From Watersipora subatra (lineage: Eukaryota > Bryozoa > Gymnolaemata > Cheilostomatida > Watersiporidae): a stretch of 64,000 bases of DNA. The stretch is taken from assembly GCF_963576615.1 (NCBI RefSeq), contig NC_088715.1:56020190-56084189 (forward strand). Reading direction: 5' to 3'. The notes beneath the pieces are model-generated. The model saw only the letters and a list, made by a program, of their open reading frames with translations. It did not search any database and was not told where the DNA came from. The translations under genes and the position numbers were made by a program. Shown piece by piece: positions 1 to 54,846 of the stretch. Position 1 is the first letter of the stretch; each line of letters opens with the position of its first letter.

Positions 1-174
1 TAATGGTGACATACTGTTTTTTTCTGTTTGATGACATCTGCTGTAGGTTGTCCGACTTTTTGTACTGCTGTTTCACCAAATACCATTGCATTGTTAGCAC
101 GTTTAAATATATTTGGTAAAAAATTAATAACTTCGGATTGCTGGACATATTGTCTAGGTTTACTGACACGCATT
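1..174 (-). CDS. Partial reading frame conserved in both arms (left copy)
   Basis: An ATG at 172-174 opens a minus-strand frame that runs off the window's left edge. It begins MRVSKPRQYVQQSEVINF and includes GETAVQKVGQPTADVIKQ. The same frame, complete to a stop, is at 54664-54846 in the other arm with a handful of amino-acid changes and no indel. I do not recognise the protein. It could be an exon of a gene or a transposon fragment. Confidence 0.3.
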
Positions 175-878
175 GATTAGATCGAGCAAGGATCAACGGG
201 TTAAAACTCGGTTTCGTATCATGGATTTTTACAAGTTTGTATTTATATTTAACAACTATGATATTATCTTACATGTATTTACATAGCATTGTCTAATTTA
301 TTTGAAAATTAGAGCTTTAACTAGCAAATGTGGTTGCTGTCTAATGACACAGGCTTGGGTAATATTTCATACCAAGGGTTAGTACAAAGCCATTTGCATA
401 GCTATTCATCCATAACATCTCGTGTATTGCTTTTCATTTGACCAGCACTTTATGTATTTCTATATCAAATTCATTGACATACAAACCGGTGGTGACTCAC
501 GGTTCTTTCATCTATGTAGGCCTTGGCGGTCATCAAGGTCCTCTTCCTTGCATTGTCTTCCGGAAGATTTTGGCGATGAGTAGATCATAAATGTCAGTTG
601 AACGCTTCTTCCCTGTCATTAGACACCTACCCAACCTAATTTTGAACAGCTGGTAAGTCATCATTGACTACTTGACTTGATGGGCTTTGTACTTAATGAC
701 CTCCCATATACTCTCAACACATTAGTCATAACTTATAATAAACTTTCATGGGTAGCAAAATCGTAAATGATACAGAATTTGAAGCGAACACGAGTCAATA
801 CACAAACCGGCTATAGGAAATCAATTGATTCTTCAGAAGATTGTGTCAGTCTACCCCAAACCTTCAAAATAAATATAT

Positions 879-880
<2 letters not shown>

Positions 881-920
<40 letters not shown>
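881..920. repeat. (AT)n microsatellite
   Basis: Forty bases of pure AT dinucleotides. The matching site in the right arm (about 53918-53938) is only half as long, so this tract has changed length since the arms separated. Confidence 0.95.
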
Positions 921-922
<2 letters not shown>

Positions 923-2078
923 CAATAACCAATGAATAGATTTAAGAATTCAAGCAATTTATGTTTACACAAATTCTGTACCATTCACTATCTCACTACC
1001 CACTTTCGCCTTGAAATTCTAGAAAATTAGAGATGCGAGCTTGCAAGGTGGTTTTTTATGTATCACTAAATGCCCAAAGATGCGAAAGGCCAGTTACGGA
1101 AACTACATCACTTGGTTTTCCCGTCAGGTCTGTTTCAGATTTGTTTTAAAAAGGTTGGCTGGAAATGAGAGTATAAGCAAATCGAGAAGTTTCCAGCCAG
1201 GAAGAGATGATTTAAAAATTAAAATGAAGAAAAAATAGAATTAGCTCTAATATAAGATCAGAACGTTTTTTTCAAGAATGTTTTATTAAGCTGAATTCAG
1301 TTATATTAAATTTATACTTTAAGTTTGTTTATGCGATGCCACAAAAGTGTAGCGTACCAAGCGTGTTTCATCAGGTCTCTCTCTCACAATCATTAGTGCT
1401 ATGATTCTCTGAAAGGTAAGAACTCCATACGGTATGCTACTGTATGGACTGCTGCATACTGCCACTACTCAAAATTATGTTGTGCATAATACTGCTACAT
1501 TTTAATGCAGACCATAACCTTTACATAGGTATTTGTAGCCTTGGGGGCATGGGTATAGAGCATGAATAGATAAAATCATGTATTTTTTCATTGTAATATC
1601 TCTTATTGGTAGTTTTTTAGAGGATGGCAACACAATAATTTATCTTTAGTTAATTTATATAAAAAACATTTTTGAGATAGGACTTTAAGAAAATTAACTT
1701 GCGAGCTTTTGTCCCAGAATGCATTTTGCTCTCATATCAGACATGACTGTACAGTAGGCGCGGCTAAAATGAGATGATCAGTTCTAGGAACGTTTACATG
1801 ATAAGGATTTTTCATTATAAGAATGTTAACATACATGTAAATTGTCTAAACCATTTCAGGACCTTTCCAAACTCGCTCATGTGAGAATCCGACTTAAATT
1901 CTTTTGAATGTATTGGCGGTGCCTTAACTGTATTATTGGTTTTCATTGACAACTTTTCATGATCAACCTCATTGGTTTAATAGACCATGATTGTGGTAAT
2001 TTGACAATAATTTGATGAAGAGCGCATAGTTTGACGCGACAGCGACTTACAACAATTGACTAAGAAAAAAAGTTTCAC

Positions 2079-14533: not shown

Positions 14534-16100
14534 GATTTCTAGCTAAAATCATATTTTAAACGTTCTGCAGAGCCATTAGTTACAGCTACCACAACTTCAC
14601 ACATTATACTCGAGGTGCCAGGAGATGGTCACACAATTTGCAAGACAATTATAGAGCTCAGTGTTTTGAAGCTCTACAGCTTTATTTGACAGAAATAAAA
14701 TAGTCCACTTTTGTTGATAAATGTTTTATGGTATTCTTGTGAATGCTTTGATTTTTAATCTTTTGGTAATGTAACAGCTGTTTGGCCTGCTTTTGATAGG
14801 TTGCTCCATTTGCACTAAAGACTTTTAGATTTATACAAACTCATTGTGTTTTAAGAATATTTTATTTGTCACCGTTGCACTCACTTGAGCAATTTGTTTG
14901 ACGTACTTATATTGAGCTTTCCTTTTCTGTAAACTCAACTCCTTGACGGGGTTGCTTAAAGAGTCAATTTTTTTCCTTTTGAGTAAGTTTGGGCTTTTTT
15001 TAAAGAAATATGCTGACCAATGTTGATAAATGCGAGTTAGATATACATGCATGCAATCTGCACAGTGTGTTCAATGTTACTGCATGGTTTCATCGAAAGC
15101 TCTTATCTGAAACCTTTTATAATCCAAAGGGCCCCACATATGCTATATTTCCCAGTTTTGCCTCAGTAGCAATGAATTGACTAAATCAAATTGTATAAGT
15201 AATAAATGTGGCCACAGGTATGCAAATCTCCCATGTTTGACATTTATGTTTTAAAAATTGGGTGTCTCTGACTCTACCAGGCATATTTGGCAGCATGAAT
15301 ATATGCACTGTTTTAATTAATATACGTTTTAAGTTTTCTATTTGACAACTAGGATGGTTTCAATACCAATTACTTGATGTCAATACCATCCTAGCTTTTA
15401 TAGCAACTTATTACAACTTTTTTTAAATGGACAAAGTGCTTGTTTTTGCCATGCATGCCCACTAACAAGCTATTAAGGGAAAGCATAAGTTTTCAATTTT
15501 ATGAATAATATGTGTGATAAACTTTAGATCAAAGCACACACAGATGTGCCTGCAAATCGGTTTTCTTAGGTTCTGTTGGCAAAATCCCTGAAATGGGGTT
15601 TCAGGGATTAGTTTGCCTTTTTAACCAATTGATAGAAAATTAAATGATGCAATAAAGGTTCATTACAAGTAAAAAGAACCAAACTAAATATCATAGTTAG
15701 CTAAATTTATATAAAAAGAAAAGAAGTAGAGCTTGGAACTAGGACTATCTAATTCAAGATATAAAAACATAATAGGAGGCCCTGAATTTAATGAGAAGAT
15801 AACTTCTCTTGCAAAAGAGAAGACAACTCAAAATTTTGTATAAAAATTTTCAAATTTTACGCTAATGGGAGGTCCTCCATTTCAAACTACAGAGCCTCCT
15901 AACCTGCAAAATTTTCCAAAATGTTGAACTCTCCGGCAAAATTTATGCAAAATGCAAAATAGATACGTATGCGATCAGCATGACGAGTAGAGTTGTTTAA
16001 GCATGTTTCTAGCGAAGCCTCCTATCAGAAGCCTCCTATTATCCAAAAGCCCTATATCGTGGATATATTTTCCAAAGTGGCCTCCTATTCAATCTAATTT

Positions 16101-16104
<4 letters not shown>
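14534..16104. other. Left-arm inner end, no gene seen
   Basis: This is AT-rich sequence matched in the right arm, with no convincing exon. Just before the spacer, AGGAGGC/GCCTCCT words recur several times (about 15770-16090). They may belong to an unrecognised repeat. Confidence 0.5.

Positions 16105-16136
<32 letters not shown>
16105..16136. repeat. (AT)n tract at left arm/spacer junction
   Basis: Thirty-two bases of AT dinucleotide mark the exact end of homology between the arms. The right junction also lies in an AT-only block (38336-38582). Confidence 0.95.
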
Positions 16137-16138
<2 letters not shown>

Positions 16139-16556
16139 TGGGAAGCTCGTGGTAAGGTCAATGAAAATGACCGCGCTAAGATCCTCTGGGACTTCTACAT
16201 CCAAACTGACAAGCATGTCCTAGCAAACCAACAAGATATAGTGGTGGTAGACAAGGAGAACAAGAGGGCTACTATAATAGATATATCAGTACCCAAATGA
16301 CTACAATATAGCCAGCAAAGAAAAAGAAAAGGTAGAGAAATATCTTCCTCTTGGAGAAGAAATTGAAAAATGCTGGAATGTAAGAACAACTGTAATCCCA
16401 GTTGTCATTGGGGCATTGGGCGCAATAACACCGGCGCATAAAATGTGGCTTGCCCAAATACCAACAACAATCAACTCAGGTGAGTTGCAGAAAAGTGCGC
16501 TATTGGGAACAGCTAAGATCTTGAGGCGAGTGCTCAAACTCCCAGGTCTCTGGTAG
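16136..16556 (+). pseudogene. LINE C-terminal fragment (non-LTR retrotransposon)
   Basis: The plus strand reads AKILWDFYIQTDKHVLAN, then QDIVVVDKENKRATIIDISV, a one-base frameshift near 16295, then VVIGALGAITPAHKMWLAQI and KSALLGTAKILRRVLKLPGL before TAG. This is the conserved C-terminus after the reverse transcriptase in a LINE group common in fish and invertebrates. The (P/Q)D...D spacing fits a restriction-like endonuclease, which is inference. The element is 5' truncated, and its 3' end runs into a TA microsatellite. Confidence 0.85.
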
Positions 16557-16614
16557 GAGACCCGAATTAGAGCAGAATTTACCACCCATACGGGGTATCC
16601 GGGATGAGGAAACA

Positions 16615-16618
<4 letters not shown>

Positions 16619-16679
<61 letters not shown>

Positions 16680-16690
16680 TGTATATATAC
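16619..16690. repeat. (TA)n microsatellite
   Basis: A long TA dinucleotide run follows the 3' end of the LINE fragment. It may be the element's own simple-sequence tail or its target. Confidence 0.95.
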
Positions 16691-16849
16691 ATATGATATT
16701 GAAACAGTTAAATTGGAATTATTTCTATCACTTCCAGCTTTAGTTCTTTTTATAGATATATAAGAGCATAATAAGAGCATAGGAAAAAAAGAAAATATAA
16801 TAGTCTAGTTTCCATCTAATAGCTACTGCTAGGTTAAACATTTATTTTT

Positions 16850-17430
16850 GTATATGCATTTTTATCTACATATCCATCTAAATCATTGTACATTGTGATA
16901 TATTTCTTTGTCCTCCAGTCTGCTTGCCTGGGCTCCTCTTTTTTCCATTTCAATATTTCATTTACATATCTATAGAGAAATACTCTCTACAAGTGGAAAA
17001 CCTTAAACAAGTTTCCCAAGTTTAGTTTTGCTTTCAGAAACCTCCTTAGTCTTTAGAAATATTCATGAAGTGTTTTCACTAGAATGTCTCTAATGCTAGC
17101 CGCCTTTAAAATTCCAGCGTATTTACATTCATCATTTTTCTCTATTCTTTGCATTTCAAACCTCTCTAATTATACCACCGTTCTTCCCTCCAATAAGTTT
17201 TTTTTCTCAACATGATTGTAGCACACTGATCTAGTTTAGACTGCATTCCATTGTTAGAACTGCATACCTTCACAATAAATATAAATGTTTCCATATCAGT
17301 CCATATCATTCCATGGTTTCCCGTACAGTTTTAGATCAGCTATATAAACAAAATAGTTAATTTTATCCTTTGTTTTATATGCTGGTGTTAGTCTTCCTGG
17401 TACAATAGCAAGGGGAACCTCGTGATCGCA
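16850..17430 (-). pseudogene. LINE reverse transcriptase fragment
   Basis: Read on the minus strand, pieces in several frames give PGRLTPAYKTKDKINYFVYI followed by ADLKLYGK, then CKYAGILKA, then WRTKKYITMYNDLDGYVDK. These match the palm and thumb of LINE reverse transcriptases. The YxDD catalytic box is degraded to YIAD. Stops and frameshifts are frequent, so it is dead. It lies opposite in orientation to the LINE fragment at 16136 and is probably a separate insertion. Confidence 0.7.
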
Positions 17431-35855: not shown

Positions 35856-36959
35856 CTTTTAGCTGCATTGAACACATTGCTCAAGAAACGGGTAAATTCA
35901 GCAGCTGTCATGGCTGTTCCATCAGCTTTGGAACACACTGTATGTGAACCGCTCTTTATAGTGTGCTCAAAGAATTTAGCCATTTATTTAAAAGAACCGC
36001 AATCTGATTCGAGCGAAGGACTAAATAAAGTTGCGGATAGATATTAAATTGCTCATGAAAGTAAACTTACCGAAGGTTAAAAAATAATGTCAAACAAAAA
36101 TATTGTACTCAAGGTCAACTCCCGAGCTAATCTGTTCTATGTCGTAACAGCACTGAGTTTAGACATAAATCTCACTACCGTAAAGTTCTAAAACGAAAGT
36201 GTCTCAAGTGAAAACACTCTTTCATTTACCCAATTTTTATTCACAAAATGCCATCAAATGTGACCAAAGTAAGCAATTGATTAAGATTGATGCAAGCAAA
36301 GAAGGATGAAGATCAGGTTGAATATGATAGCGAGTCTTGGGATTCAGATGTTAAAGATTTGGAAGTTGTCAAGGGCTGCAAAAGTAATCAGGAAGTTAGA
36401 GTCTGATAGATTTAGGTCGCAGTGGTAGAGGGGTTATTGATAAGCTTATGAAACCTGAAAAGCTGTGAGATAGCTATTGTAATTTAGTGTTTATGATTGG
36501 AATTAAAATATATATCTAGTGAGTGAAACTTCAAATAGACATCCCACATGTCTTTGGTATTGTAAAATCTTACAGTATGAAATGTTCTATTTATGACTCG
36601 ATAGTGGACAGTTTAAAATCAGCTGATAAAGGTGAATATAAAGTTAATAGTGTAGGAGCAGGGATGACACAACTCTAATCGACATCTAGTAAAAAGCTTT
36701 TCTCCTTTAAAAATTAAAGAAATCACTGAAATGAAAGTAGATCGAGAAGATATTGCCAATGTGTGAAGAGAGAAAAAACTCAATACAGTCATTATTGAAA
36801 AAAAGTAGACGTAACTAGTATAGGCGCAGGAAACTGGCTTTAACATAAACAAGATGTGTTGTATTGCTCCCTTGTGGTCTAAAAAAGAAATCATTGAAAC
36901 AGTTGGTTTGGCTTGAGCCATTTAGGAAGTGTGTGATGAAGCAGCCTCAGCCATTTTTT

Positions 36960-37800
36960 TCAGTGGTCATCTGAGCGTGGCAAAAACCTGCGATCCTATT
37001 TTGTCATGCTTTTATTGGCTCCGTTTTTCAGCGAAGGTGGTCAAATTCTGTAGGTGATGGGACATTTGTTAAAAGACTATACCTAATAATAAAGTGAGTA
37101 AGGTACCCCTACAAAATATGTCATTGAAAGATGTTCTATTCAAAAAAGTAGCAGTAGATTTAATTGAACCAATCTATCCTCTTAGTGAGGAAATCCAATG
37201 TTAAAGCTTGACATTAGTTGACTTTGCAGCTTGGTATCTAGAGGGGGTTCTATTAAAAACTATTGATATTTAAACTGTTTTAAAAGCCATGGTTGATATT
37301 CTTAACTGACTAGGTGTTCCAGATAAGGTTCTAAGTGACATGGCTACTCAGTTTGTGTTCACATGTATGAAAGAAGTTGGACCGCCGTTAAGTATAAAAC
37401 AGATGATAATGACTTCTTATCATACAATGCGCAATAGTTGTGTCAAGAAGTTCAATGGTACCTTTAAGCAGACGCTGAAGAGATAATACAGCAAGCACCC
37501 AAGCAATGTTATAAATATGTTAATGCTCTGCCGTTGGTTCACCATTAAGTTATACAAGAGGCAAGTAGTTTTTCGCTATTTGAGTTATTCCATGGTCATG
37601 CTGTGTGCGAAACTACCAAAATTTTTTATGAGTTGTGAACTTTGGAAAATCTTGAAGCAGAGGTAATGAGTACATAGCAATATGTGTTTGAGCTGAGGGA
37701 TAAACTTGAAAACACCCCCAGCAAACAAAAACATCTATAGAAGACTCAGAGCTGAGATAAGCATGATCACGGTCATACAAGTATGAGGGAGTGCCTGTGG
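36960..37800 (+). pseudogene. Gypsy integrase remnant
   Basis: The zinc-binding entry reads GHLSVAKTCDPILSCFYW. The core reads KKVAVDLIEPIYPLSEE, TLVDFAAWYLEGVLLKT, LGVPDKVLSDMATQFV and KKFNGTFKQTLKR. The first two catalytic aspartates are visible; the position of the third acidic residue (normally EKFNGT) is Lys. Several in-frame stops are present. The C-terminal chromodomain-like part is only faint. Confidence 0.8.
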
Positions 37801-38335
37801 TCCAGTGTTCAAGTTCTAATCTTGTTGCCAACAGTTGAAGATTAGTTGTTGTTGCAGTGGATGAGTACTTTTGGCATTGTTGATCTGGTCAGCTTGAATG
37901 GCTATGCTATGGGGGCAAGTGAAAAGAGGACAATCTTTCATGCCAATCTTTTGAAGCAGTATTATTCTGAGGTCATTGTTAGTGGGGGTGTCCTAAAGAA
38001 GGTTAGTTGCTGTTGATATTGTTGATGAAAATGAGAACGTCAGCTTTTAGTTAGAACCTAGAATGTTACATTTTTAGAATTACGATGCTCTGCAAAATTG
38101 AATGGAAATACTACAGTAGTCACACAAATCAGTAAAATTGGTAATGTTATCTTGATTGATTTTACACTCTCATTATATTAAAATTACTTTTACTTTTTCT
38201 GTACATTATTCAAGTTTTATTTACAAACCGTTTGCTGTCAGTTCAAGTTTGCTGATTTAGAACTGTCAAAAAAAGAATGCTTATAATTTTCAGTAACTTG
38301 CTAGAACAGAAAAATGGTCTTATACTAATATAAGA

Positions 38336-38552
38336 AATATATATATAATATATATATAAAATATATATATAATATAAATATATATATAATATATATTATA
38401 TATAATATATATAATATATATTATATATATATAATATAAATATATATATATATATATAATATATATATTATATATATAATATATAATATAATATATATAT
38501 TATATATATAATATATATAATATATATACATTATATATATAATATATATATG

Positions 38553-38582
<30 letters not shown>
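38336..38582. repeat. AT-only block at spacer/right arm junction
   Basis: About 245 bases made solely of A and T in TATATAAT-type words, directly before the right arm begins. It mirrors the shorter AT tract at the left junction. Confidence 0.95.
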
Positions 38583-38583
<1 letters not shown>

Positions 38584-40134
38584 GTCAAATTAGATTGAAT
38601 AGGAGGCCACTTTGGAAAATATATCCACGATATAGGGCTTTCGGATAATAGGAGGCTTCTGATAGGAGGCTTCGCTAGAAACATGCTTAAACAACTCTAC
38701 TCGTCATGCTGATCACATACGTATCTATTTTGTATTTTGCATAAATTTTGCCGGAGAGTTCAACATTTTGGAAAATTTTGCAGGTTAGGAGGCTCTGTAG
38801 TTTGAAATGGAGGACCTCCCATTAGCGTAAAATTTGAAAATTTTTATACAAAATCTTGAGTTGTCTTCTCTTTTGCAAGAGAAGTTATCTTCTCATTAAT
38901 TTCAGGGCCTCCTATTATGTTTTTATATCTTGAATTAGATAGTCCTAGTTCCAAGCTCTAATTCTTTTCTTTTTATATAAATTTAGCTAATTATGATATT
39001 TAGTTTGGTTCTTTTTAGTTGTAATGAACCTTTATTGCATCATTTAATTTTCTATCAATTGGTTAAAAAGGCAAACTAATTTGGGTTTCAGGGATTTTGC
39101 CAACAGATCTTAAGAAAACCGATTTGCAGGCACATCTGTGTGTGCTTTGATCTAAAGTTTATCATACGTATTATTCATAAAATTGAAAACTTATGCTTTC
39201 CCTTAATAGCTTGTTAGTGGGCATGCATGGCAAAAACAAGCATTTTGTCCATTTTAAAAAAGTTGTAATAAGTTGCAATAAAAGCTAGGATGGTATTGAC
39301 ATCAAGCAATTAGTATTGAAACCATCCTGATTGTCAAATAGAAAACTTTTAAAATGTATATTAATTAAAACAGTGCATATATTCATGCTGCCAAATATGC
39401 CTGGTAGAGTCAGAGACACCCAATTTTTAAAACATAAATGTCAATCATGGGATATTTGCATACCTGTGGCCACATTTATTACTTATACAATTTGATTAAG
39501 TCAATTGCTTGCTACTGAGGCAAAACTGGGAAATATAGCATATGTGGGGCCCTTTGGATTATAAAAGGTTTCAGATAAGAGCTTTCGATAAAACCATGCA
39601 GTAACATTGAACACACTGTGCAGATTGCATGCATGTATATCTAACTCACATTTATCAACATTGGTCAGCATATTTCTTTAAAAAAAGCCCAAACTTACTC
39701 ATAAGGAAAAAAATTGACTCTTTAAGCAACCCCGTCAAGGAGTTGAGTTTACAGAAAAGGAAAGCTCAATATAAGTACGTCAAACAAATTGCTTAAGTGA
39801 GTGCAACGGTGACAAATAAAATATTCTTAAAACACAATGAGTTTGTATAAATTTAAAAGTCTTTAGTGCAAATGGAGCAACCTATCAAAAGCAGGCCAAA
39901 CAGCTGTTACATTACCAAAAGATTAAAAATCAAAGCATTCACAAGAATACCATAAAACATCAACAAAAGTGGACTATTTTATCTCTGTCAAATAAAGCTG
40001 TAGAGCTTCAAAACACTGAGCTCCATAATTGTCTTGCAAATTGTGTGACCATTTCCTGGCACCTCGAGTATAATGTGTGGAGTGGTGGTAGCTGTAACTA
40101 ATGGCTCTGCACAATGTTTAAAATATGATTTTAG

Positions 40135-40323
40135 CTAGAGATCTTTGAAGCAATTCGCAAGAGAACTTTGCTGACTGTAGACACGCCCAGCTACAGAAAT
40201 AACTTTAAGGTTGGATGTCATTTCAGTCACCGGATGCCTTTTTGGAAATTGAACATCAACTTGTTGTTTGAAGGTTAGGCAATCTAGACCACTTTGCCTC
40301 CACTGGTAAATATGCTGCTCTAC
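40135..40323 (-). CDS. Candidate terminal exon B, right-arm copy
   Basis: The copy of 14354-14533 with an intact acceptor. The frame is open with replacements such as G to D and R to C. The stop is displaced three codons by loss of the original TAA. Its upstream partner exon (43806-43942) is frameshifted, so this gene copy is probably non-functional. Confidence 0.35.
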   Translation of the reverse strand, partial: VEQHIYQWRQSGLDCLTFKQQVDVQFPKRHPVTEMTSNLKVISVAGRVYSQQSSLANCFKDL

Positions 40324-40977
40324 CTGCAAAGAAACCAGTTATTAACCTGTTAGTATAGTTAAAAATTAGGAGAATGTTGAACACTACTCATTTTACAGAC
40401 TTTCCCAAGATATCAAACCAGCTTTAAAACAATACTGACTAAAAAGTGTGCTCCATCATGTTGTTTTAGAACGCTTAGGAGATTGGCCAGAAACTTGAAG
40501 AGTAGGCTTTTGCAGCAAGCTATATCGGTGGCTGTACTAAATTTAGGTCGCACAGAAGATGCTTTCCTACTAAAACTCTGCATAATTATGTTTCCCCTAG
40601 AGATTGCAGTTCTCACTATGTTGATGTTTTGCCTAAAAAAATTAACCTAGTAAGCCTTAAAAAATTCTTGTTTCGATGTTGTTAACACAAGTTAACTCAA
40701 AAAAAGTAAAAAACAACAAACATTATCATTAATGCTTTCTTTTAAGCTAAAGCTTTTTTGTCAAACTATTAGGTAAGAATGGTATCTTTTAAATATAAAA
40801 TGTAATGAATAGTTGGGTTAAGAAAAGCTTTGCTTTACAAACTAATAATTACAGCGTTACCATTCCTCTTATTTCTAAGCAAAATGCACCAAAATCTACA
40901 AAATTTTACACATTCAGCCTGTACTGTGATGAGAACCGTGTCTGTCCATATAAAGCCACCGTTGGATAATGGAAAAA

Positions 40978-41050
40978 TATTGCATCATACAGGATTTGAA
41001 CTTGCAACATTTACCTTGCTAGACTGACACTACAACAACTATGCTAATTG
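40978..41050 (-). repeat. tRNA-like SINE head (right arm)
   Basis: Reverse-complement partner of 13622-13692, with the B-box-like AGTTCAAATCC kept. Confidence 0.45.
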
Positions 41051-41884
41051 ACCTTGTAATAATTTGCAATATTTGAATGCATAATTATTGCAACTGATAA
41101 TCTTTTACAGCACTCTACACTGCCATGATGTTTTTTAGTACAAGCCAAGTTGATTCAAAATCTTGAGCTGAGTAAAATTCCTAACTGTCTACACGGTCAA
41201 TTTTTTCCATGCACAAATTGACTATAAATTGTATAAAAGTCCCTTTTCATTCAGTTGGCCTTTAACAATGTAAGGTTGGTGTGTATGAATATGCCTTTCA
41301 CTGCAATGCATACATGTACAAATTAAGCATAGGGTTACTGCCAGGTTACTCTGCAAAGCAGAGTTGTCCTCTCGCGCACTCCAAACAAATCCTAAATATT
41401 TAGGATTATACATTAATCATTAATTATATAGACATTATTGAAATTCTTTAAATAGTTTAAAAGTTTCTATTAAAACATATTTTTAGCTTTTGTTTACACT
41501 ATTTAGTCTCTGCTTATATAATAAAGCTACTCTTTGCCATTAGCATGTCTGTGCCAATGCGCTCGTTTATAACAGTTCATCTTCGTAGACTATTTGAGAT
41601 GACCAAAATAAATTCTAGCTCAGCTAAAAATTTAATTCTGATGCTGATATCAACTGATTTGGCAATTAAAAAAACATTCAGTTTTTAAGGTTGTAAACAT
41701 GAATTTGGAGATCAAAAAGAAGGTGAGGTGAATAAAAGCCACAAGAGACAGACTGCTACTTGTTGCGGCTAGCTAACAAAGTAAAATCAGTGTCTGTATG
41801 ACATCATTTATCCATCGTCGGGAAGAGCTTGGGAGCAAAATAGATTTTGATGAGACTAGATATCATGACATTCAGCTTGGTATA

Positions 41885-42831
41885 CAGACGGTCCCCAACC
41901 TACGAACGAGTTACGTTCCGAACATTTGTTTGTACAGTGAATTTGTTCGTAAGTTGCTTCAGTGCTATATTTTGTATTATAATTTATGCTTAACATGTAT
42001 TTATTTATTATTGATGCCTACATGTATATAAGTATATTGAAGGTTTATATAAGTATGTTTAAGGCTTGTATAAGTAACCTGTAAATTGGTTTGTACTGAA
42101 AAAACTTTTTAATAAAATGGAGAGAATACTGTGGTGGACGCCGGGCCATGACACTGCATTTCTTATTGATTGTATGTGTTGTCCTTTTTTATTATATCAT
42201 TGTTTTAATCGTTATGCTAGAACTTATCGTTGTCCTTTTTTATGTGTTGTCCTTTTATTATATTGTTGTTTCACTCGTTATTCTATTGTTATATCTGATA
42301 TCCCATCATAACACTATCATTTATCGTCACTTTTATTGTTGTCATACCAACTCGCTAGCGGTCCTATTTATTCACCTTGTTAGCCGGTGTTCTCACCGTT
42401 TGCCGTTAGGACGGAACGGTTGATATTACTGAATATAACGGAGCGCACTCATTTATTTGAGCAGAGCAGATAGATGTACGCTCCTCGAATAGTGAAATTT
42501 CCTTCGCTAATAAAAAGCTGAATGAAACTACACACACTCTTCTTTTTATTTATTAGTCTAGATCGTGCCAAGTAAAGGTTGGCAAACTCCTTTACAATAC
42601 ATACAGGAAAAATAAAAAAGTTATTTGCGCATTGGAGATGCGTTCACACACTTATGCACTGCAATGAACTGGGCAGAGGAAGGTGGATGCTGGGTGATGC
42701 TTCTACGTAGCGCCTCTTTCTGCCGCTAATACGTCGGTAATACCGTCGGTATTATCGATGAATATACGCGCAGACCTGTTCGTATGTACCGTCGTTCGTA
42801 ACTCGAATGTTCGTAAGCAGGAGTCTGTCAG
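41885..42831. mobile_element. TA-flanked DNA transposon, right-arm copy
   Basis: Partner of 11858-12788. The end at 41885 keeps CAGACGGTCCCC; the other end has decayed (GAGTCTGTCAG). Confidence 0.8.
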
Positions 42832-43805
42832 TATTAACACTCCAAAGCTTTCACTGATAGATCCCCTTCAAATATTTCTGATTTCTTGCGAGGCGAATCA
42901 TTTTACATATTTTTGACAAAAATGACAATCTCTAATGACAAACTAGTTTAACAATGTATTGGTATCTATAATAGCGAACCCTATGCTTCTTATCATTGCT
43001 CAAGTTTGGCAAGAATGTAAGCGATATTTTTAAGGACAACTATGAAAATTTTGTTAATAAATTTGGGAATTTTCACCAACTTGACACTTTACCCTATATG
43101 GCATTACTTATGTTGGTCAAACAAAAGCTTTACATAAATTCTTTACATGGAGAGGAATTTGCGTTATAATAGGTATACATGTACATTATAGAAAAATTTG
43201 CTGTACAGCTATTCCAACCAGATAAAAATCTGACCTATGCCCATACTACAAAAAATTCATAATTTGAGTTAAAATACTTGGATTTAAGTTAGAATATGAC
43301 CTAAAAGTCAATGAAAGGAACATTAATTTACTTTTCACATAGGAAACAAATACATTATGCTAATGAAACAATGCAAGTGTTTTGGCCTTAAAGTTTGGCT
43401 CATTTATGTATATACTTAAAAACATTACTTTTTATTTTGTGTGTTTTCACTGTCCACAAAAGACCCTGGTCCCCGTTAATCCTGAAAATTGAATGATGAC
43501 TGCAGAAAACAGCTATGACAGGCCGAACTGGATTTGGAACAAAAGGTACATTTCTCACAAACAGAGATTGTAAATGGTACAAAAATGCAAGTTAAGCAAT
43601 ATGAGTGTCATTCAGAGTTTAAAAAAAGCTATAGCTTGTTGCAGACTATTAGATACATCGTCCAAATACATATTATTGAAATTTTCGGACTAGCACAAAA
43701 ATTTTCATTTCAATATTTGTAAAATACATCTAAAAAAAATATTGTTTTTCACCAAAGTTCATTCTATGTCACTCAATATTTTGGTGTTTTGACACCATAA
43801 TTTAC

Positions 43806-43942
43806 CTTCACTAAGTTCCTTTGTCCGCTTTCCTCTGACCAGAACCTCCCCAAATATGTAAGCTTTTGTAACCTTGAATCGCCAATTCTTTAGATAACTT
43901 GTCTAGCACCAGAGTGGGTGCGGAACATGTTATAGCAACACC
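43806..43942 (-). pseudogene. Exon A, right-arm copy, frameshifted
   Basis: 137 bases instead of 138: one T is missing in the codon after TGGGGAGG. Splice sites are intact. The frameshift leads to an early stop. Confidence 0.5.
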
Positions 43943-44798
43943 CTGCAATTAGTAATAACAAAATAGAAATATCACATTTTTTGAATAGATGATTTTCCGA
44001 TTTAAATTAAACTCTGTTCATAGCTAATCAATTGCAAGCTCATTGATTGCTGCAAAAAAGGAAAAAACTGAGCAAGCAGAAGTGCATCTGATATTTTAGC
44101 TTATGACTCTCAATCCCAGCTCTGATATTTGTCATCATTGTGATTTGTAGGCAGTAGAAGAACGCGAGTTAAGCAATGTAAAAACTTATTCATATCCTAT
44201 TAAAAAAATGGACTTCAAATGTTGAAGTGGTATTTCAAAAGCAATTACTCATTCGTAAAATTGATAGTCAGTAGTCTGACCCTGATCTGGACTTGGCTTT
44301 TAGATATTATTGCAAGGTAAAGTTTAGAGCTGGTCACCATAGGTTTTAACTGTGAGTTTCAGTTCCTATCCCAGACACTATGCTTACATATAGTCTGTAC
44401 AAGTGCTATCGTCAATGGTCAGGCAACCAGAATGCAAGAACATGACAAATATAAACATGTAAGGGTGAATAGGAGCTGTATACACAATTAAAATAAAGCA
44501 GTTATTTCACAGGGCACAGTCCAATTTGTAAAACGGAATAACTAGTAAATGACATTCAACTAAATTGTTGTTGATGACAGCTCTGCACAAGCTTCAGCTA
44601 AACATTCACAGATAAAAATTACATAAAGAAATACACAAACTAAAAAGCAATAATACTTAGTCAATACTAAGAATGATTATGAAGTTTAAGAATATTAATC
44701 AAAATTACGTACAGTGGCACTCGCATACCGTTGTTGCTTGAAAGGTATGTTTCCAAAAGAAAGTCTTGTTATTTTTCGAAAAGATCACTAATGCTTAA

Positions 44799-45708
44799 AG
44801 GTTGACTTGCAACAAAATTCACACTACAGTTATTTGGTATCAAAAGATTCACTATGTCTTACTCTGTTGTGTTGCATGTGCAATATATGTAGAAATGTGA
44901 TAACATGCTCTTAAAAGCTGAAAAGCGAACAGTTAATCGCCGCCATCACAAAATTGCCGAAGATTACAATCCCGTTCCAAAAATTGGTCAAATGGAACGT
45001 AGCTCAACAAGATGGCTTCTGTTTACACTTTCATGCAACCTCATTCATTTAAATTATTTCACAAATACACTTCACGCATTTAATAAAACAATGTCTATTG
45101 TCCTCAAGCATCTGTTTCCTCATCACTGTATTGATGTCACTTTGAGCACTGATATCTCAAAACCTACCGTAAAAATTTGTTTAATTTTTAACCTTAGCTC
45201 GAAGGAATGCATATCATCATCTGATAAGCATGAAAAGCCTGTTGGTCACTTGTGATAGTCAAAAAATGCTGCGGAAATTATGCTCGCTGTTTGGCAGGAA
45301 GCATGGGTCACATGATCAGATTGCGACTAGACGATTAGATCAACCCAAAACAAAATTGTAAACTAGCAAGCATCTATATTTAGTAAGAGCTATTTGGTGA
45401 AACCCAAAGTTTATGTCATAAACTAGTGCTACAAGAAGTTTTATATTGAGCCTTTTACGGAACTTACAATTCATGTGAGAAGATCACGGGTCAAAACAAT
45501 AACCAAATCATTTTACTATGTCAGAGAAATAAATTGATTCCAATCTACGGCGGTTTCGGGATCGCGGAGATTAACTGTTTCTTTTTTAGCTTTTAAGAGC
45601 TTGTAATCACAGTTCTCCATATTTTGCACCTACAACACAGCAGAGTAAGCCATGGTGAATCTTTTGATACCAAATAACCGTAATGAAATTTTGTTGCAAG
45701 TCAACCTT
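44799..45708. mobile_element. MITE family A, right-arm copy
   Basis: Partner of 8983-9893 with the same ends. An open frame of about 116 codons inside is not conserved in the left copy and is treated as chance. Confidence 0.85.
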
Positions 45709-46384
45709 CAACAAGCAAAATGATAACAAGCTCCAGTACCATGCATTGACAACTTGGGCAGCTAAGTCGTACATGCAAATCAGAAGAGTATTTTACGGTA
45801 TTTTGGAAAAGCCAATAATTAACCAATATTTGAGTTTTCATCAAATTAAAGTACATTTAATGGGCCATTTTAGCAGCGCAAAGAAAGCACATTTCTGATG
45901 ACCATTTGCACCAATTTAGGGCAGGTAGTAGGAGTGAAACAAATTGGTTCGACTTATTTTAGTCAAAAATGGATACAAGTATTAGCCAAATAAAAGTTTG
46001 TTACGGAAAGTTTTATCATAATAACATAATTTGAAATAAATTATATGATAAACCGCTTGCAGTTGCTTCATTTTTTCCTGCAAACGCATTAAAATCTGTA
46101 ATAGAAAACAAGACACCTATACAAAATCAAAACTGGTTGTTAATTTCTGTTAGTGATGACATATTTTTTATTGTAGTTTTACAGTAGCACTATTAGGTTC
46201 CAAACAGTGCATTAACTATTAATATGTGTCATGATCACAGAATTCATGGTAAGTCGGGATTACAAGGTTTAGCAAACAAAATTTTGATTCTAGCCAAATT
46301 ACAGCAGATTTTATGGTCAAAAAACTGAAGCACGTTTACCATTAGTGCAAAAACATAGTTCCAAGAAAACTGGTGTTAAAGTTT

Positions 46385-46955
46385 GAGAAACGAAAACAAA
46401 TGTACAGTTTTGTTTACATTTCAAAACGACATAGCAACCAATATCAAGATATTGTGATATTTATCTAGATTTCTGCACTTGGATCCAAAACATTATGCTG
46501 AATTTAAAAATCTAAACATATTTTAGCTGGTTTTCAAAGAAATAGCTGTATATTTATAAGAAAGTGTATTACTTAATTTTGCAGATATTAAAAACAGCTT
46601 GATAGTATCGCTATATTGGGCACACCCAAATCATCAACCAAATCTTTAGAAAAATAACAACAGTAACATATTGCACACCATCGGTCATTATATACTTCGA
46701 CCTTGCAAACTCGAATAATTATTCTCATAACTAAATCTGATTATAATTTCATAAAAATTGAATAATTATTCTTATTATTAAATATTGTAGTAATCTTGTA
46801 AGAATCGTTAGGAAAATATCACCGCAACTCCCTTTACTTTCACTGCTTTTGACATCAGTTAGAATACCAAAGTACTCATTACAAGTGTCCAAAATGTCAA
46901 AGTTACCTTTAAAATCGGCAAAAAAGAAACAATTATGTTTATCGGACACCATTTT
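46385..46955 (-). repeat. Interspersed repeat, right-arm copy
   Basis: Partner of 7741-8310. Confidence 0.7.
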
Positions 46956-49900
46956 TCAGTACTTCTTGTTTAGCATAGCAACGGTTTTAAGTTTTTTTTA
47001 GAGGGTAAAATACTTTTATTGGCTAAACTGATTTCAGATTCAGAAAGATCACTCTTTGATTGGTCCAGAACTACAGGTTACAAAATTTGTTACCAATATT
47101 ATAAGTTCAGTTGGTGCAACTTCAAAGTCGAATAACTCAACTTCGTGATTTGTGACTTAATCATGGTTTCTGTGACCGCGACCCATATGATCTACCTGCT
47201 TATAACTTCAACTCCTTTACTACCAAATGGATCTCTCTACCGCGACATACGTGTTTCGTGAAACCTAATTTCTAAAAAGAGTGTATAAATGGTTATAACT
47301 TTACACTCCAATTGTTTATTAACAATATTTTTATAGCAAGTTTGTCAGCATAAGTTTTTATGTTAGTTCATGCCCCCAAAAATATTACAAACGAGTTGCC
47401 GAGTGAGAGGGACCACTTTTCGTCCATTTTGAAATTACTGTGAGGTAAGCACAAAACTCTAGTCGGATGATTTATGAATATTATTAGTTTACATGTTAAT
47501 TAATCTGATGAACATAATTACTCTCATTAGTACTATTGCTCAATAAAGTTACTCAGTCTATAGATCTGAAGTTAGTAACCATTTATGGCTGTATTGCTTC
47601 TGAAATTACTGGTCATCAGTAAGAAGATTTCATAAAACAAGTTTTTGCAAAGCAAAACTATGCTCAGGTTGTAAACGCATTCTTATTTGCTCAAAATATG
47701 CAAATAATAGCTTTTTTTTAATCAGGTATAGATGTAATAAGGTAATTTACTAATTACTCAGTAATCGGAAACAATTTGTACAAAAGATTGCTAAAGCCGC
47801 ATCATGCAGCACTTGGCCATACAGAAACACATTGCCAAACGAGCTGTACTATTGGTAGTTTAAGAGTTCACACTGAAACAGCTTCAAAATAAAATTAAGA
47901 CATAAGAAATCAGTGCAATAACTGCTTCATATTACATTTACTTCATGCCTTGTTGTAATTGAGCATCATACTGCGTGCACAATTAGGAAAAAATGGCTGC
48001 AAGATCAAAATTTACCAAGTATTTAATTTGTTAATGAACCCTGATAAAAAACAATTTAGACAATTTATGCAGAATTTAAATGCAACTGCATTTCATCAGC
48101 ATTTTTATAAGCAGGCTTAGTGTAAAAAACAGAGTAAGAGCCATACCACAAGTTCATGAAGTTTTGAACAAATTGTTACTTTACCCTTCAATATGTTGTA
48201 AAATGCTAAGACAAGGTTAAAAAATTATTGACGCTGTTGGAAGAGAGAACGCTTCAAATGCCTCTAGATTTCATAAAAAACAGCTAAAAAATGATGGCCA
48301 GGGTTCTTGAGGACACTTTTATTTGTATGAAAGATTGGTAGATAGAACATTATTACACAAACAGACAACTCCAAAATTAAAGCGCAAACATTGTGACTAT
48401 AAAGGGTAAATAAAAATTGGTTCAAAGTAAAAGCTAAAAGGCTATTGTGCCTGGTAGTGGTAGCATCATTACCATATCATTTTTCTATTGAATAACGTAA
48501 TACACTTTTTATTAGAAGAGAACAAACTTTGGTACATTAATTTGTCCTACATGTGATGGCTCTTATTAAAGACCTAATTTTTACCAATGAAGTGTGCCCT
48601 CAGATTAAGATGACCCTATTTATGAACCACACCGCCTATCAGAGTTTTTTAACATACAAATTAATCAGCAGAAGGTTTTACGCCTAATGTTACCGACAAA
48701 AAATCTAAAAAAGTGTGTTGCAGTATGAGCTTGGTCAGGTTCTCATCCTCTTTTGCTGATACAATAGGTAGCAATCAGTAGTCCATTTTCCAAAGGTTTA
48801 TTTATTGCCCATTTCTAAAACCTTAGTAGCTGTAAAGGTCTAACACAGCTGTTTATTGCAATAATAAACTGTAAAAACAAAAATAATGATTCTCAAAAAA
48901 CTTTGGTCCCTGTTGGCTGTTAACATGTTTTCTATTAGTTAGATGCAGGATGGCGATTGGTTTTTTTCTATTAGGTACACATATGACCGGCTAACTAATT
49001 GCCTACTCACTAATAAGAAATGTTTTGTACAAAGACTTTTTTAGCGCATTGCTCTTGGTTATAAGCATACATTGTGCTGAGCTGCACTGCGCAGCCTGTT
49101 GTACGCACTCAGTTAATGGACTAGACCAAAATCTGATTGTGTTTTAGAATTTTTCCATTTGGAAAACCCAGGCTACACTCATTAAGAAATACATTCAATC
49201 TTTAAAAAATGGTTAATATTTTAATACTTTGATATTGTATTTGTACAATTTAAATATCAATTGTACATGCCACTCCATACATGGTTATTTTGCTTCATAA
49301 CTATTGTTTTACTATTTTTGCGGATTGTCAGTGCTATAGTATTTTAGTGTAGCCAACTACCCAATGTAATGACTGCAGTCTCCAGAGCTCACTTTAGTCA
49401 TCAAAGCCAAATTTAATTATCAGAAGATTAGGGCTACAAAAAGTAGAGGACTCATCAACTTACCCTTCAGTTTTTCAAAAAACTTGTAGGCCAATATGAT
49501 TAGTTCTGTGAGAATATGATTAAAGAACAATAGTTCTGCGTGGTGAGCTCATCTTCGTTCTCCAGATTAAACAACTTCTACAAAAGCACAAAGTTTTTAA
49601 CATTGTATAAAAAAGTAAGTTGATGAGGACTTCATGCACAGAGTCTCTGGCCACCTTCAATTTGGTATTGAAAGAAATGTTGAAAGTGAGCTCCCATTAA
49701 ACCTATATTTGAATGCACCTTGATTTGATTGGCACCGCTATTTGTGACCACATCAGGAGAGTGCTTTGAAAATCGAGCGCCATCTTTTTAATGAACGCCA
49801 CCTCTATTTGAGGAGGTAAGTTACCTTCTCAGTATAGGTATAGGTTTAGGTATATTCACTTTTTTTGAAAATATAGCAAGGAGCTTTTAAGGTCCAAACA

Positions 49901-51360
49901 GGGCGATTTTATTGCAAGCGTCATGAGGAGGGCAAAGATATCGCTGGTGCGTGCGTAAACACACTTGAGCGATTTACTAGTAAATGATATAATGGGCACG
50001 CTCACAAACTGCCAATAAAAATCCGTATCATCAGTTTTTTCGGAGTTGTTAATAAATTTAGGCCAGTCAATATGTCGTCGTCGTCTATGCTACAACATGA
50101 ACAACCTCCACATTTGTTATTAAACCTATCTTCCTTTCAAAGAGTGTACACTGCCTACACTATAAGAAGAAAAAAGAAAAACGATTCTTGTATTTTTACC
50201 TGTATTGTTTTTACAAATTTTTTATACATATTATATTTTGTAGTGGTTTTTCATATTTAATGTATTAAATATTTACCCTTCTCAAGATGGTCAACCGGCG
50301 CAACGATTGACTCCAGATGTTGGTGTTCAACTCAGATTTTTTTTAATTTTGTTTGTTATGATGGACAGAACTGGGAGTGCTATTATTAAATTCATGAACA
50401 ATTGAGTGTTCGTTCTGAAGATGTTTCAATCGTAACAAAATAGAAAATTGGCGCTGCTGTACGTTGTTGAACATCGGTAAGAAATAATTACCCGCCGTAA
50501 AATTACATTCTGGTAAAAACTAACCAATCGAAATGCATCTCGTTAGCAATAAAGTTGTGTAGAGAAATTCTAGCTTTATCGCTCTGCATGAACACGCTGA
50601 GTGAATTCTAACGCAGATTAGCGCCTAATTTAGCACCAGATTAGCGCCAATATCGCCAGATTAGCGCCAATATCGCTGTAATTATCGCCTAATTTGTTTT
50701 CACCTGAAGATAATGCTTCAGCGATAACACTTGTTCTATTGAGTCAAATATGCTACAAAGCAAAAAATTCCTCTGCATTTATTGTCGGGGTTTTATAAAA
50801 AACACCATTATCAGCTTTTCAAATGTCTTAACCGCCAGTACATCAGCAGTCATAATTAAACATTGTCCCAAAAACAAGCTGCCTCAAACTGAGAAAATAT
50901 CGTACTAATCAAACATTCCACGTTAAGTGGAAAGAAAATGGGATAAACTACAGCATTGAAATTAAAGCACTCTCACACTCATTTCATGAACAGTTCTGTC
51001 AAAATCTTCACTGATAACTCAGCTTGCACTTTTATCCCATAAGTGCCAGAGTCACAGCTAGGAGCAATAGGTCGGCTTTGCGCTAGAGGACAAGCAAGGC
51101 TAAAAGTGATAAAAAATAGATAACACACAATAAACTTTATTTGTCTACAAAAAATAGAGCATAAATGCTGAGACATTGTGACAAAACGTGGTAACCTGAC
51201 CAAAATTTGGAACAGAGTTCAATTAGTGATGAGGGAGCAAAAGTATCCTACATGGGAGCTATTGCACCCTTTAAACATGATATTTGTACCTCACAAACTC
51301 ACATGGTCTTTTAGAGTAAATTAGATGCTCCTATAACATATACCTACTATAGCATAAATT
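46956..51360. other. Right-arm stretch without a supported gene
   Basis: Partner of about 3466-7740. It includes the mutated copy of the 3652 exon (about 50990-51110, donor lost) and the private repeat at 50613-50693. Confidence 0.5.
50613..50693. repeat. Right-arm-specific minisatellite
   Basis: CAGATTAGCGCC(T/A)A units repeat about four times. The left arm at about 4060-4085 has a single related unit, so the expansion happened after the arms separated. Confidence 0.8.
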
Positions 51361-51486
51361 CTAAAAAAAGTCAGGCAATTTTGTAAAGTTTTTGCTTCGT
51401 ACCGCGTAAAAAACGCCATATAACTTAAAGTTTATCATCGGGCGAGTTCTAAAGTTCGATTTGAGTGTTAGTCTGTCTTGCCACAC
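51361..51486 (-). CDS. Candidate terminal exon, right-arm copy of 3340-3465
   Basis: Same acceptor and 41-codon frame, beginning VWQDRLTLKSNF. Five of the seven differences from the left copy are silent. Confidence 0.35.
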   Translation of the reverse strand: MWQDRLTLKSNFRTRPMINFKLYGVFYAVRSKNFTKLPDFF

Positions 51487-51509
51487 CTGCGAGAAAAGAA
51501 AGCGACATA

Positions 51510-52520
51510 CAGTGGTGTCAGAAAGTCTTTGTCCACCTCAAACCTCACTGCCCATTTTAGGTAAATTTGTTGTTGTAGTCATGTAGAGGGATTGAACCCT
51601 GACAAACCATGCATCATTTAAAAGTAAATTAACATTAGATCTTGTTGACACCATCAGTAATAAAATTAGGGTTAATCAGGGATCAATAATCAATTTTAGG
51701 CCAATCAATGTGAATCAGTGCTTATTAACTCATTTTCAAACGCAATATGACATTATTAATTTTCAAGTGGAATATTATCACAACAATACGGGTCCTTTTG
51801 GACAGCATGTGCAGCAAAGGTTTACAGTTTGGCTTGTTAAAAAAGGAACAGCTAAAGATCCCAGAATTCATACCAGCGTCAACATCAACCATGGATAAGA
51901 AATGTGTCAACGACCTCATCATTCACCTGCATACGATGGCCAATCTGAGCAGTAGAAAAATAGCGAAGAAGCTTAAGAGTATTTCAATCTAAAGAAAATT
52001 AAGTGGTAAAGAAATGAGCGCAGCATCAAACCACCAAAGATCTACCACGATCAAGGCGTTTGAAAAAACCAGCTGTCCAACATGATTGCTGGTTTCAGAT
52101 TATGAACACTCAAGCGCTCGTGAGGCTTGTTCACAGCATGCCTAAGGCTGCAGAATGATTATAGTCTGCAAAGGCTACCAGATAAAATATTAAAATGCAA
52201 AACAACCCCAATGGCTTTTTTCTGGGCCCATAACAGTACAAGACTGTTATTTTCAATTTAGAAAATAATTAAAGAAGAGATAATAACAAAATTTGCGATG
52301 ACATATTTTCTGGTATGTAGTGTGAATGAGTAGGCAACGGTTGATACAATAGAAGATATTTGGCAATTTTAAAATCTAGTTATTTCTATTCTTCAGCTCA
52401 TTAGGATTGTTTTGATACAGGGTTTTATGTATGCGGTGCAAAATATTTCCAAATTATGATGAATTTATTGCAGTGCTACACTTACTTAAACAGGCGGACA
52501 AAGATTTTTTCCCAACACTG
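51510..52520 (+). mobile_element. Tc1/mariner-like element (right arm)
   Basis: Partner of 2307-3316, with TA on both sides. The decayed transposase fragment runs on the plus strand from an ATG at 51891 to about 52158. Confidence 0.8.
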
Positions 52521-54663
52521 TACATAAAGCATTATACACATAATACATACAATTTCCATGACATTCTGACTCTTGTGATAATTTGTCTGAAGTGACGACG
52601 GAACAGAGAATAGGTACATATAGCAGTGCAATTGTTGATAAATACTTTTAAGGCTATTGGTCGGTGCATCTGAATGTCACGAGTTGGAGTTGCAATCTTG
52701 AGCTCTTAAGGACGAATAGATGACGAAAAGGTACTACCGCTTTTTTATAGTGAAACTATTTTTTCTTAGTCAATTGTTGTAAGTCGCTGTCGCGTCAAAA
52801 CTATGCGCTCTTCATCAAATTATTGTCAAATTACCACAATCATGGTCTATTAAACCAATGAGGTTGATCATGAAAAGTTGTCGATGAAAACCAATAATAA
52901 TGCAGTTAAGGCACTGCCAATACATTCAAAAGAATTTAAGTCAGATTCTCACATGAGCGAGTTTGGAAAGGTCCTGAAATGGTTTAGATAATTTACATGT
53001 ACAAATGTATGTTAACATTCTTATAATGAAAAATCCTTATCATGTAAACGTTCCTGGAACCGATCATCCCCTTTTAGGAGCGCCTACTGTACAGTCATGT
53101 CTGATATGAGAGCAAAATGCATTCTTGGACAAAAGCTCGCAAGTTAATTTTCTTAAAGTCCTATCTCAAAAAATGTTTTTCATATAAATTAACTAAAGAT
53201 AAATTATTGTGTTGCCATCCTCTAAAAAACTTTCAATAAGAGATATAACAATGAAAAAATACATGATTTTATCTATTCATGCTCTATACCCATGCCTCCA
53301 AGGTTACAGATACCTATGTAAAGGTTATGGTCTGCATTAAATTGTAGCAGTATTATGTATAACATAATTTTGAGTAGTGGCAGTATGCAGCAGTCCATAC
53401 AGTAGCATACCGTATGAATTTCTGACCTTTCTGAGAGTCATAGCACTAATGACGGTGTGAGAGAGACTTGATGCAACACGCTTGGTACTCTACACTTTTG
53501 TGAAATCGCATAAACAAACTTAAAGTATAAATTTAATATAACTGAATTTAGCTTAATAAAACATACTTGAAAAAAATGCTCTGATCTTATATTAGAGCTA
53601 ATTCTATTTTTTCTTCATTTTCATTTTTAAATCATCTCTTCTTGGATTCAAACTTTTCGATTTGCTTATACTCTCATTTTCAGCCAACCTTTTTAAAACA
53701 AAATTAAAGCAGACCTGACGGGAAAACCAAGTGATGTAGTTTCCGTAACTGGCCTCTCGCATCTTTGGGCATTTAGTGATACATCAAAAACCACAGTGCG
53801 AACTCGCATCTCTAATTTTCTAGAATTTCAAGGCGAAAGTGGGTAGCGAGATAGTGAATGGTACAGAATTTGTGTAAACATTAATTGCTTGAATTCTTAA
53901 ATCTATTCATTGGCTATTGTTATATATATATATATATCAATACATTTATTTTGAAGGTTTGGGGTAGACTGACACAATCTTCTGAAGAATCAATTGATTT
54001 CCTATAGCCTGTTTGTGGATTGACTCCGGTTTGTGTATTGACTCGTGTTCGCTTCAAATTCTGTATCATTTACGATTTTGCTACCCATGAAAGTTTATTA
54101 TAAGTTATGACTAATGTGTTGAAAGTATATGGGAGGTCATTAGGTACAAAGCCCATCGAGTCAAGTAGTCAATGATGACTTACCAGCTGTTTAAAATTAG
54201 GTTGGGTACATGTCTAATGACAGGGAAGAAGCGTTCAACTGACATTTATGATCTACTAATCGCCAAAATCTTCGCCAAAAGACAATGCAAGGAAGAGGAC
54301 CTTGATGACCGCCCAGGCCTATATAGATGAAGGAACCGTGAGTCACCACCGGTTTATATGTCGATGAATTTGATATAGAAATACATAAAGTGCTGGTCAA
54401 ATGAAAAACAATACACGAGATATGGATGAATAGCTATGCAAATGGCTTTGTACTAACCCTTGGTATGAAATATTACCCAAGCCTGTGTCATTAGGCAGCA
54501 ACCACATTTGCTAGTTAAAGCTCTATAATTTTCAAATAAATTAGACAATGCTATGTAAATACATGTAAGATAATATCATAGTTGTTAAATATAAATACAA
54601 ACTTGTAAAAACCCATGATACAAAACCGAGTTTTAACCCATTGATCCTTGCTCGATCTAATCA

Positions 54664-54846
54664 ATGCGTGTCAGTAAACCTAGACAATATGTCCAGCAAT
54701 CCGAAGTTATTAATTTTTTACCAAATATATCTAAACGTGTTAACAATGCAATCATATTTGGTGAAACAGCAGTACAAAAAGTCGGACAACCTACAGCAGA
54801 TGTCATCAAACAGAAAAAAACAGTATGCCACCATTATTCGGGCTAA
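54664..54846 (+). CDS. Reading frame conserved in both arms (right copy)
   Basis: Sixty codons from an ATG, containing KPRQYVQQSEVINFLPNI and ETAVQKVGQPTADVIKQKK, with a stop at 54844. The left copy (1-174) keeps the same frame with about four replacements. The family is not recognised. Confidence 0.3.
   Translation: MRVSKPRQYVQQSEVINFLPNISKRVNNAIIFGETAVQKVGQPTADVIKQKKTVCHHYSG

Follow-up and report, generated by a model that had tools for sequence, protein, structure and literature searches.

Organization of the locus

The stretch of Watersipora subatra DNA analysed here (the window) comprises 64,000 nucleotides of contig NC_088715.1, C8:56020190-56084189 of an assembly of 783.7 Mb in 239 contigs. 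It contains a giant inverted repeat, the two arms of which belong to two copies, A and B, of a large element dispersed through the genome:

1..16103, + strand: copy A, its right-hand 16.1 kb in the window (BLAST, flank self-comparison, end patterns)
38584..64000, - strand: copy B, inverted, its first 25.4 kb (BLAST, flank self-comparison, end patterns)

BLAST comparison of the window with itself revealed three inverted match blocks, 1-3610/54836-51216 (94.6% identity), 3613-4069/51138-50683 (95.2%) and 4085-16135/50611-38553 (96.0%). The blocks are collinear and together pair 1-16135 with 54836-38553; the giant inverted repeat described in an earlier note on this DNA is thus real and was correctly placed, although both of its arms run on beyond the window. 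In a full alignment the arms differ by 545 substitutions at 16,016 aligned sites (3.40%); 56 gaps, the largest of 75 bases, were counted in an alignment that slightly overruns the inner ends. The level of about 3% divergence given earlier therefore stands, but the differences are spread along the entire arm rather than confined to one stretch of about 340 bases.

To both sides of the window 100 kb were fetched and the whole region was compared with itself (matches of at least 700 bases). Extending the comparison in this way located the outer ends at window coordinates of about -23,790 on the left and about 77,470 on the right. Copy A spans about -23,790 (C8:55996399) to 16103 (C8:56036292), about 39.9 kb, and begins 23.8 kb before the window; copy B spans 38584 to about 77,470 (C8:56058773-56097659), about 38.9 kb, and ends 13.5 kb past it. 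A third copy, C, lies 60 kb beyond B in the same orientation as A, at about 137,346 to about 179,100. None of the matches listed among A, B and C extends past the copy ends and their TA arrays.

Element termini and flanking TA arrays

The element has constant ends with imperfect terminal inverted repeats (TIRs), subterminal clusters of the 8-mer TAGGAGGC, and TA arrays on both sides. The inner ends of the two arms sit in the two arrays listed last:

16077..16103, + strand: right terminal repeat of copy A (end comparison; read inward, it agrees with the left end at 19 of 27 bases)
38584..38610, - strand: right terminal repeat of copy B
15773..16087, no strand: five TAGGAGGC/GCCTCCTA motifs at the right end of copy A, starting at 15773, 15894, 16017, 16031 and 16080
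38600..38914, no strand: five TAGGAGGC/GCCTCCTA motifs at the right end of copy B, starting at 38600, 38649, 38663, 38786 and 38907
16104..16136, no strand: TA array at the right end of copy A
38337..38583, no strand: AT-rich array at the right end of copy B, its final 27 bases before the element a pure TA run

The agreement between the two ends, at 19 of 27 bases, was equalled or bettered by 47 of 1,000,000 random pairs drawn from the window. The 8-mer or its complement occurs 16 times in the 264 kb of the extended region, every time no more than about 330 bases from an element end: two per left end (three left ends) and five per right end (two right ends present). Such terminal repeats and motif clusters are expected of TIR transposons with subterminal binding sites.

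The same boundaries recur in copies elsewhere. In all seven left-end stretches obtained from other copies, a TA array is followed by the identical first base, and seven of the eight right-end stretches (copy C and seven others) stop at the identical base, followed by a TA array; the eighth (L039) starts about 190 bases past the end. All 19 ends compared (ten left and nine right, including those of A, B and C) adjoin an uninterrupted run of TA, 12-85 bases long. Such runs of at least 12 bases account for 0.68% of the 264-kb region, element-flanking arrays counted in. TA lies on both sides of the ends compared, but inside arrays, which would mask a TA duplication. When the 19 flanks (up to 320 bases each, A/T-only stretches masked) were compared, there were few flank-flank matches beyond TA-rich simple sequence; the left flank of a copy at C4:55103276 shares a 176-base piece (95% identity) with the right flank of A, and a 42-base match links that same flank with L045.

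A derivative of a long terminal repeat (LTR) retrotransposon was rejected as an origin of the element, the ends matching as short inverted repeats and the self-comparison yielding no match of at least 700 bases between the two ends of one copy, as long terminal direct repeats would give.

Genome-wide distribution and length

Searched with 2 kb of the arm (window 10000-12000), the genome yielded 1,427 first-look candidates. Among the best 40, which were scored, 30 span all 2,001 bases at identities of at least 96% (A itself included), and these fall on C1-C9 and the small contig C110, with B ranking 29th of the 30. Patterns for the element ends, allowing up to 3 mismatches, detected 181 left ends (36-base pattern) and 167 right ends (33-base pattern) genome-wide; the reversed control patterns of both ends had no match.

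For pairing, the first 100 places per end, all mismatch-free, were used. The 100 left ends reach from C1 to C6:53.3 Mb and were set against the 63 right ends in the same range, leaving aside 8 right ends beyond that point on C6 and 29 on C7-C11, for which no left ends were listed. In the correct sense, 57 of the 63 right ends paired with a left end, at spans of 36.2-52.9 kb in 56 cases, of which nine fall at 38.5-39.1 kb, and of 13.3 kb in one, at C4:52747606. The unpaired ends (43 of 100 left, 6 of 63 right) neither show nor exclude truncation, because partners with mismatches are absent from this set. In 22 copies for which both the left end and the interior piece were listed, lengths came to 37.9-55.3 kb, six of them to 38.7-38.9 kb. 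The uninterrupted element is about 38.8 kb long, and longer where other DNA has been inserted. The genome holds roughly 170-180 copies, the paired ones nearly all near full length; if most copies are full length, the element makes up, by simple arithmetic, about 0.9% of the genome.

Copies A, B and C all lie inside about 203 kb (C8:56.00-56.20 Mb). For an element with some 170-180 copies spread over 784 Mb, three so close together are unexpected; local hopping or DNA rich in arrays may be the cause.

Relation of A to B and to other copies

Copies A and B were compared with the three best matches of the 2-kb arm piece, on C4 and C2, over 4,932 sites. The distance of copy A is 0.93, 1.20 and 2.53% to these three and 3.39% to B. 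Changes private to one copy number 27 in A, 125 in B, and 14, 20 and 89 in the three others. Only 11 sites are common to exactly two copies: six to B and the C2 copy, two to A and B, two to B and one C4 copy, and one to A and the other C4 copy. Judged from these sites, the relation of the five copies is close to a star in which every copy has diverged on its own, B the most, and A and B did not arise from each other. That A is closer to three copies elsewhere than to B, with which it shares two derived sites, argues against both an inverted duplication and joined haplotypes.

The evenness of the A-B differences along the arms was assessed after sites adjacent to gaps had been dropped and clusters merged, which left 438 difference events. 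These are no more uneven than a Poisson process (P 0.10-0.25, six window sizes); before cleaning, the differences were more clustered than Poisson. Simulated alleles were as even with a joint P of 0.011 at a recombination/mutation ratio of 0.03 and in 0 of 390-400 runs at ratios of 0.1-3, while ratios of 0.01, 10 and 30 gave joint P values of 0.15, 0.06 and 0.55 and are thus compatible with the evenness. Because these last ratios fit, and because of the clustering before cleaning, the test lends independence of the two copies additional support and does not decide the matter.

Coding content

Open reading frames (ORFs) were scanned in three sets: the longest 148 of 239 in the window (counting those of the spacer and right flank), the longest 140 of 188 in the rest of copy A, and 95 further arm ORFs (84 of 129 short ones and 11 longer). 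In addition, six-frame translations of copy A were read with stops as X, at E ≤ 1. None of these searches turned up a convincing domain of a transposase, reverse transcriptase, integrase or virus in copy A, though spliced or novel genes could escape them. Nor did copy A yield a match to a DDE/D transposase or to DNA polymerase, capsid or herpesvirus proteins. A Polinton/Maverick, a Teratorn or an endogenous virus was accordingly rejected, copy A lacking such protein matches and the 148 window ORFs showing one weak match to Matrix_Borna.

The weak matches, with E values in brackets, involve one ORF each: PRA1 (0.0038), RING_XB3 (0.0056) and Matrix_Borna (0.0086) among the 148 window ORFs, and DUF4772 (0.0023) and DUF7880 (0.0056) among the 140 from the rest of copy A. 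The PRA1 match recurs among the 95 arm ORFs, and two unnamed PHROGs match at 0.0022 and 0.0083. With stops read as X, copy A gave DUF4772 at 1.1e-4 (short of its cutoff), xRRM at 0.13 and YmgL at 0.42, and the arm had no match at E ≤ 1. Scans of the window for Rfam families and tRNAs found nothing.

The strongest of these matches, DUF4772 at 1.1e-4, sits in a nested pair of 1.28-kb inverted segments, the other half of which holds the longest internal frame, of 171 codons in A and 199 in B. A search of the PDB with this frame returned nothing under E 0.23. For the 199-codon frame of B, the best 150 of 629 genomic candidates were scored, and about 104 of the 150 are stop-free by hand count; some of them belong to longer frames (269-336 codons), and C9 and C4 have inverted pairs too. 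We take the 1.28-kb pair, with its frame, to be probably an older element nested in the larger one and not the enzyme of the latter. By eye, the differences between copies follow no consistent codon-position pattern.

Two tandem-like repeats were seen within the element, 55330-56488 with 57123-58279 (89.7%) and 56487-56861 with 59413-59792 (88.4%).

Nested insertions and longer copies

The copies are insertion targets in their turn. A 2.03-kb segment (99.6% identity) is present in both A and C, at two different places in the element. Two copies, at C8:54329066 and C2:44586758, are both about 48.3 kb long, and 20 samples of 200 bases each placed the extra DNA of both between copy A positions 31 and 3,863. 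In the C8 copy it begins after position 383 and looks like a recent LTR retrotransposon, because two identical 200-base pieces stand about 7.3 kb apart in it. The samples from the C2 copy had no match to the 6.8 kb read of the C8 insert. A longer, autonomous form of the element was therefore rejected as the source of the two copies, and their equal lengths look coincidental.

Origin of the inverted repeat

The two arms are almost certainly two separate insertions, in opposite orientation, of one dispersed element. We consider it very probable that this element is a giant, apparently non-autonomous transposon that targets TA arrays. According to this explanation, a giant DNA transposon would insert into TA arrays, with a transposase supplied in trans predicted to bind the terminal repeats and the TAGGAGGC motifs and to use TA as its target. 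Copies A and B would have entered, in opposite senses, two separate TA arrays 22.5 kb apart, trapping the spacer between them as host DNA. In our view, two such insertions would account for every feature of the inverted repeat. The idea that the arms belong to a very large mobile unit, raised in the earlier note, comes nearest to this; the pair is not a single unit with a 22.5-kb cargo, each arm being a unit of its own.

The element would work like a giant non-autonomous DNA transposon. It is probably non-autonomous because no transposase-like gene was found, and for the same reason we lean towards movement in trans by a TA-targeting transposase. With no enzyme in hand, and with the DDE/D transposase that is the hallmark of Tc1/mariner sought and not found, no superfamily is assigned.

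Several observations weigh against this explanation. No partner supplying a transposase was identified, and a transposase that is novel or split over several exons may have been overlooked. No empty site was seen, which leaves a target-site duplication and a preference for TA before insertion unproven, and the TA arrays could belong to the element itself. The outer flanks (L070, L040) of the copy at C2:56021298-56060029 share 74 identical bases in inverted orientation, perhaps because its target lay inside an older inverted repeat. Finally, the local order of the copies depends on the assembly.

An autonomous element, with a transposase of its own in small spliced exons or from a family outside Pfam, would be a new kind of giant animal transposon. 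Thirty-nine kilobases give ample space for it, and the longest internal frame is stop-free in about 104 of its 150 scored matches (the hand count above); that frame, however, belongs to a nested inverted pair that occurs elsewhere too, the copy differences follow, by eye, no consistent codon-position pattern, and neither the ORFs scanned nor the six-frame translations of copy A matched a transposase, integrase or reverse transcriptase. Autonomy is therefore unlikely. We are similarly doubtful of a new TA-array-targeting lineage of about 39 kb whose transposase, unlike Pfam's, would come from internal spliced exons or an unrecognised partner. Spread could also do without a transposase, if the 39-kb segment were excised as a circle by recombination between TA arrays and re-entered other arrays likewise. 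TA arrays at 19 of 19 ends compared and the near absence of coding content would suit such a cycle; the ends, however, match as inverted repeats and hold the sole TAGGAGGC clusters of the 264 kb, and since array recombination requires neither, we regard it as very improbable.

Other alternatives confine the event to this locus. An inverted segmental duplication with breakpoints at TA arrays, the old inverted duplication of the earlier note, would explain near-identical inverted arms with TA arrays at their inner ends. The arm is present on many chromosomes, however, both arms stop at the element's own termini, and the outer ends likewise coincide with element ends. Of the 11 derived sites common to exactly two copies, moreover, two belong to A and B, against six that B has in common with the C2 copy; private changes number 27 and 125. 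The notion of TA arrays as fragile breakpoints of such a duplication was dropped, because arrays flank all 19 ends compared, and the duplication itself is scarcely tenable. Palindromes of the parthenogenetic or bdelloid type were considered too, as a precedent. The earlier note's main alternative, an assembly artefact in which two haplotypes of one locus were joined in inverted orientation, could draw on self-complementary TA arrays misleading the assembler and on 3.4% being a possible allelic distance. It is contradicted by the dispersed copies, by boundaries at shared element termini and by the few derived sites common to A and B; the divergence is also more even than that of simulated alleles at ratios of 0.03-3, ratios of 0.01, 10 and 30 being compatible with it. 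We give this artefact practically no credence.

A giant inverted repeat in one window thus need not mean duplication or assembly error; the question is settled by the outer ends and by the remainder of the genome. Pairs of the A-B type would be natural substrates for inversion via recombination, and the inversion-prone locus suggested in the earlier note may be a consequence of the two insertions, through recombination between A and B.

Relation to known giant transposons

Transposons of the Tc1/mariner type have terminal inverted repeats and show TA where they have inserted. The bryozoan element resembles them in having TA at both sides of its ends (within arrays) and terminal inverted repeats, and departs from them in its size of about 39 kb, its imperfect ends, and the absence of a DDE transposase match in copy A.

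Giant DNA transposons of the KDZ, EnSpm and Sola-1 groups in the brown alga Ectocarpus are reported to exceed 30 kb in some cases, with some families presumed to be wholly non-autonomous and with nested insertions common to copies (PMC12477816). The shared traits are a size of tens of kilobases, transposase-less families and nested insertions; the Ectocarpus giants have accessory genes and named superfamilies (PMC12477816), in contrast to the bryozoan element, with almost no recognised gene, a probable TA-array target and no superfamily assigned.

A review of giant transposons covers Teratorn, Terminons and the limits on DNA-transposon length (PMC6431247). Teratorn and Terminons are, like the present element, mobile and about 40 kb or more; Teratorn has a piggyBac-like transposase and herpesvirus genes, and Terminons a reverse transcriptase and telomeric sites (PMC6431247), whereas the element yielded none of these Teratorn domains and no reverse transcriptase domain. 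The review states that DNA transposition becomes less efficient with longer cargo, and that long elements are selected against because dispersed copies recombine (PMC6431247). An element of about 39 kb with almost no recognisable genes, present in roughly 170-180 copies, some within about 1% of one another, tests both ideas; such a size with so little recognisable gene content is unusual. The literature searched held no description of this element, which does not prove it undescribed.

Spacer and surroundings

Two features were annotated between the copies:

16137..38336, no strand: spacer, host DNA between the insertions
24366-25586, - strand: GT10 fucosyltransferase frame of 407 codons, in the spacer

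Relatives of the GT10 frame, about 79-88% identical, occupy several stretches of C8:55.92-57.02 Mb (about 1.1 Mb), and more occur on C2, C5, C9 and C11. A spacer repeat of 3.1 kb at about 17708-20858 has 440-base inverted ends that are 91% alike; for its middle, the best 40 of 9,622 candidates were scored and are mostly 89-94% identical.

The piece from 16137 to about 16617 adjoins copy A and has TA arrays on both its sides. From its reading frame, we take it to be the 3' end of a long interspersed nuclear element (LINE) with a TA tail; the 176-base piece at the left end of the C4:55103276 copy, noted above, is the similar sequence adjoining another copy. By eye, L072 (C1:62837551-62837909) and positions 2775-3590 of L016 also resemble the LINE piece; the flank comparison did not list L072 against the right flank of copy A.

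Window 30001-32000 has a G+C content of 46.7%, against 28-38% in the other 2-kb bins, and overlapping frames of 130-143 codons, none of which, among the frames scanned, matched Pfam. On the other side of copy A, 5 kb to its left, lies a tandem array with a 20-base step (L016; window coordinates -29417 to -27657), nearly 100% identical from copy to copy.

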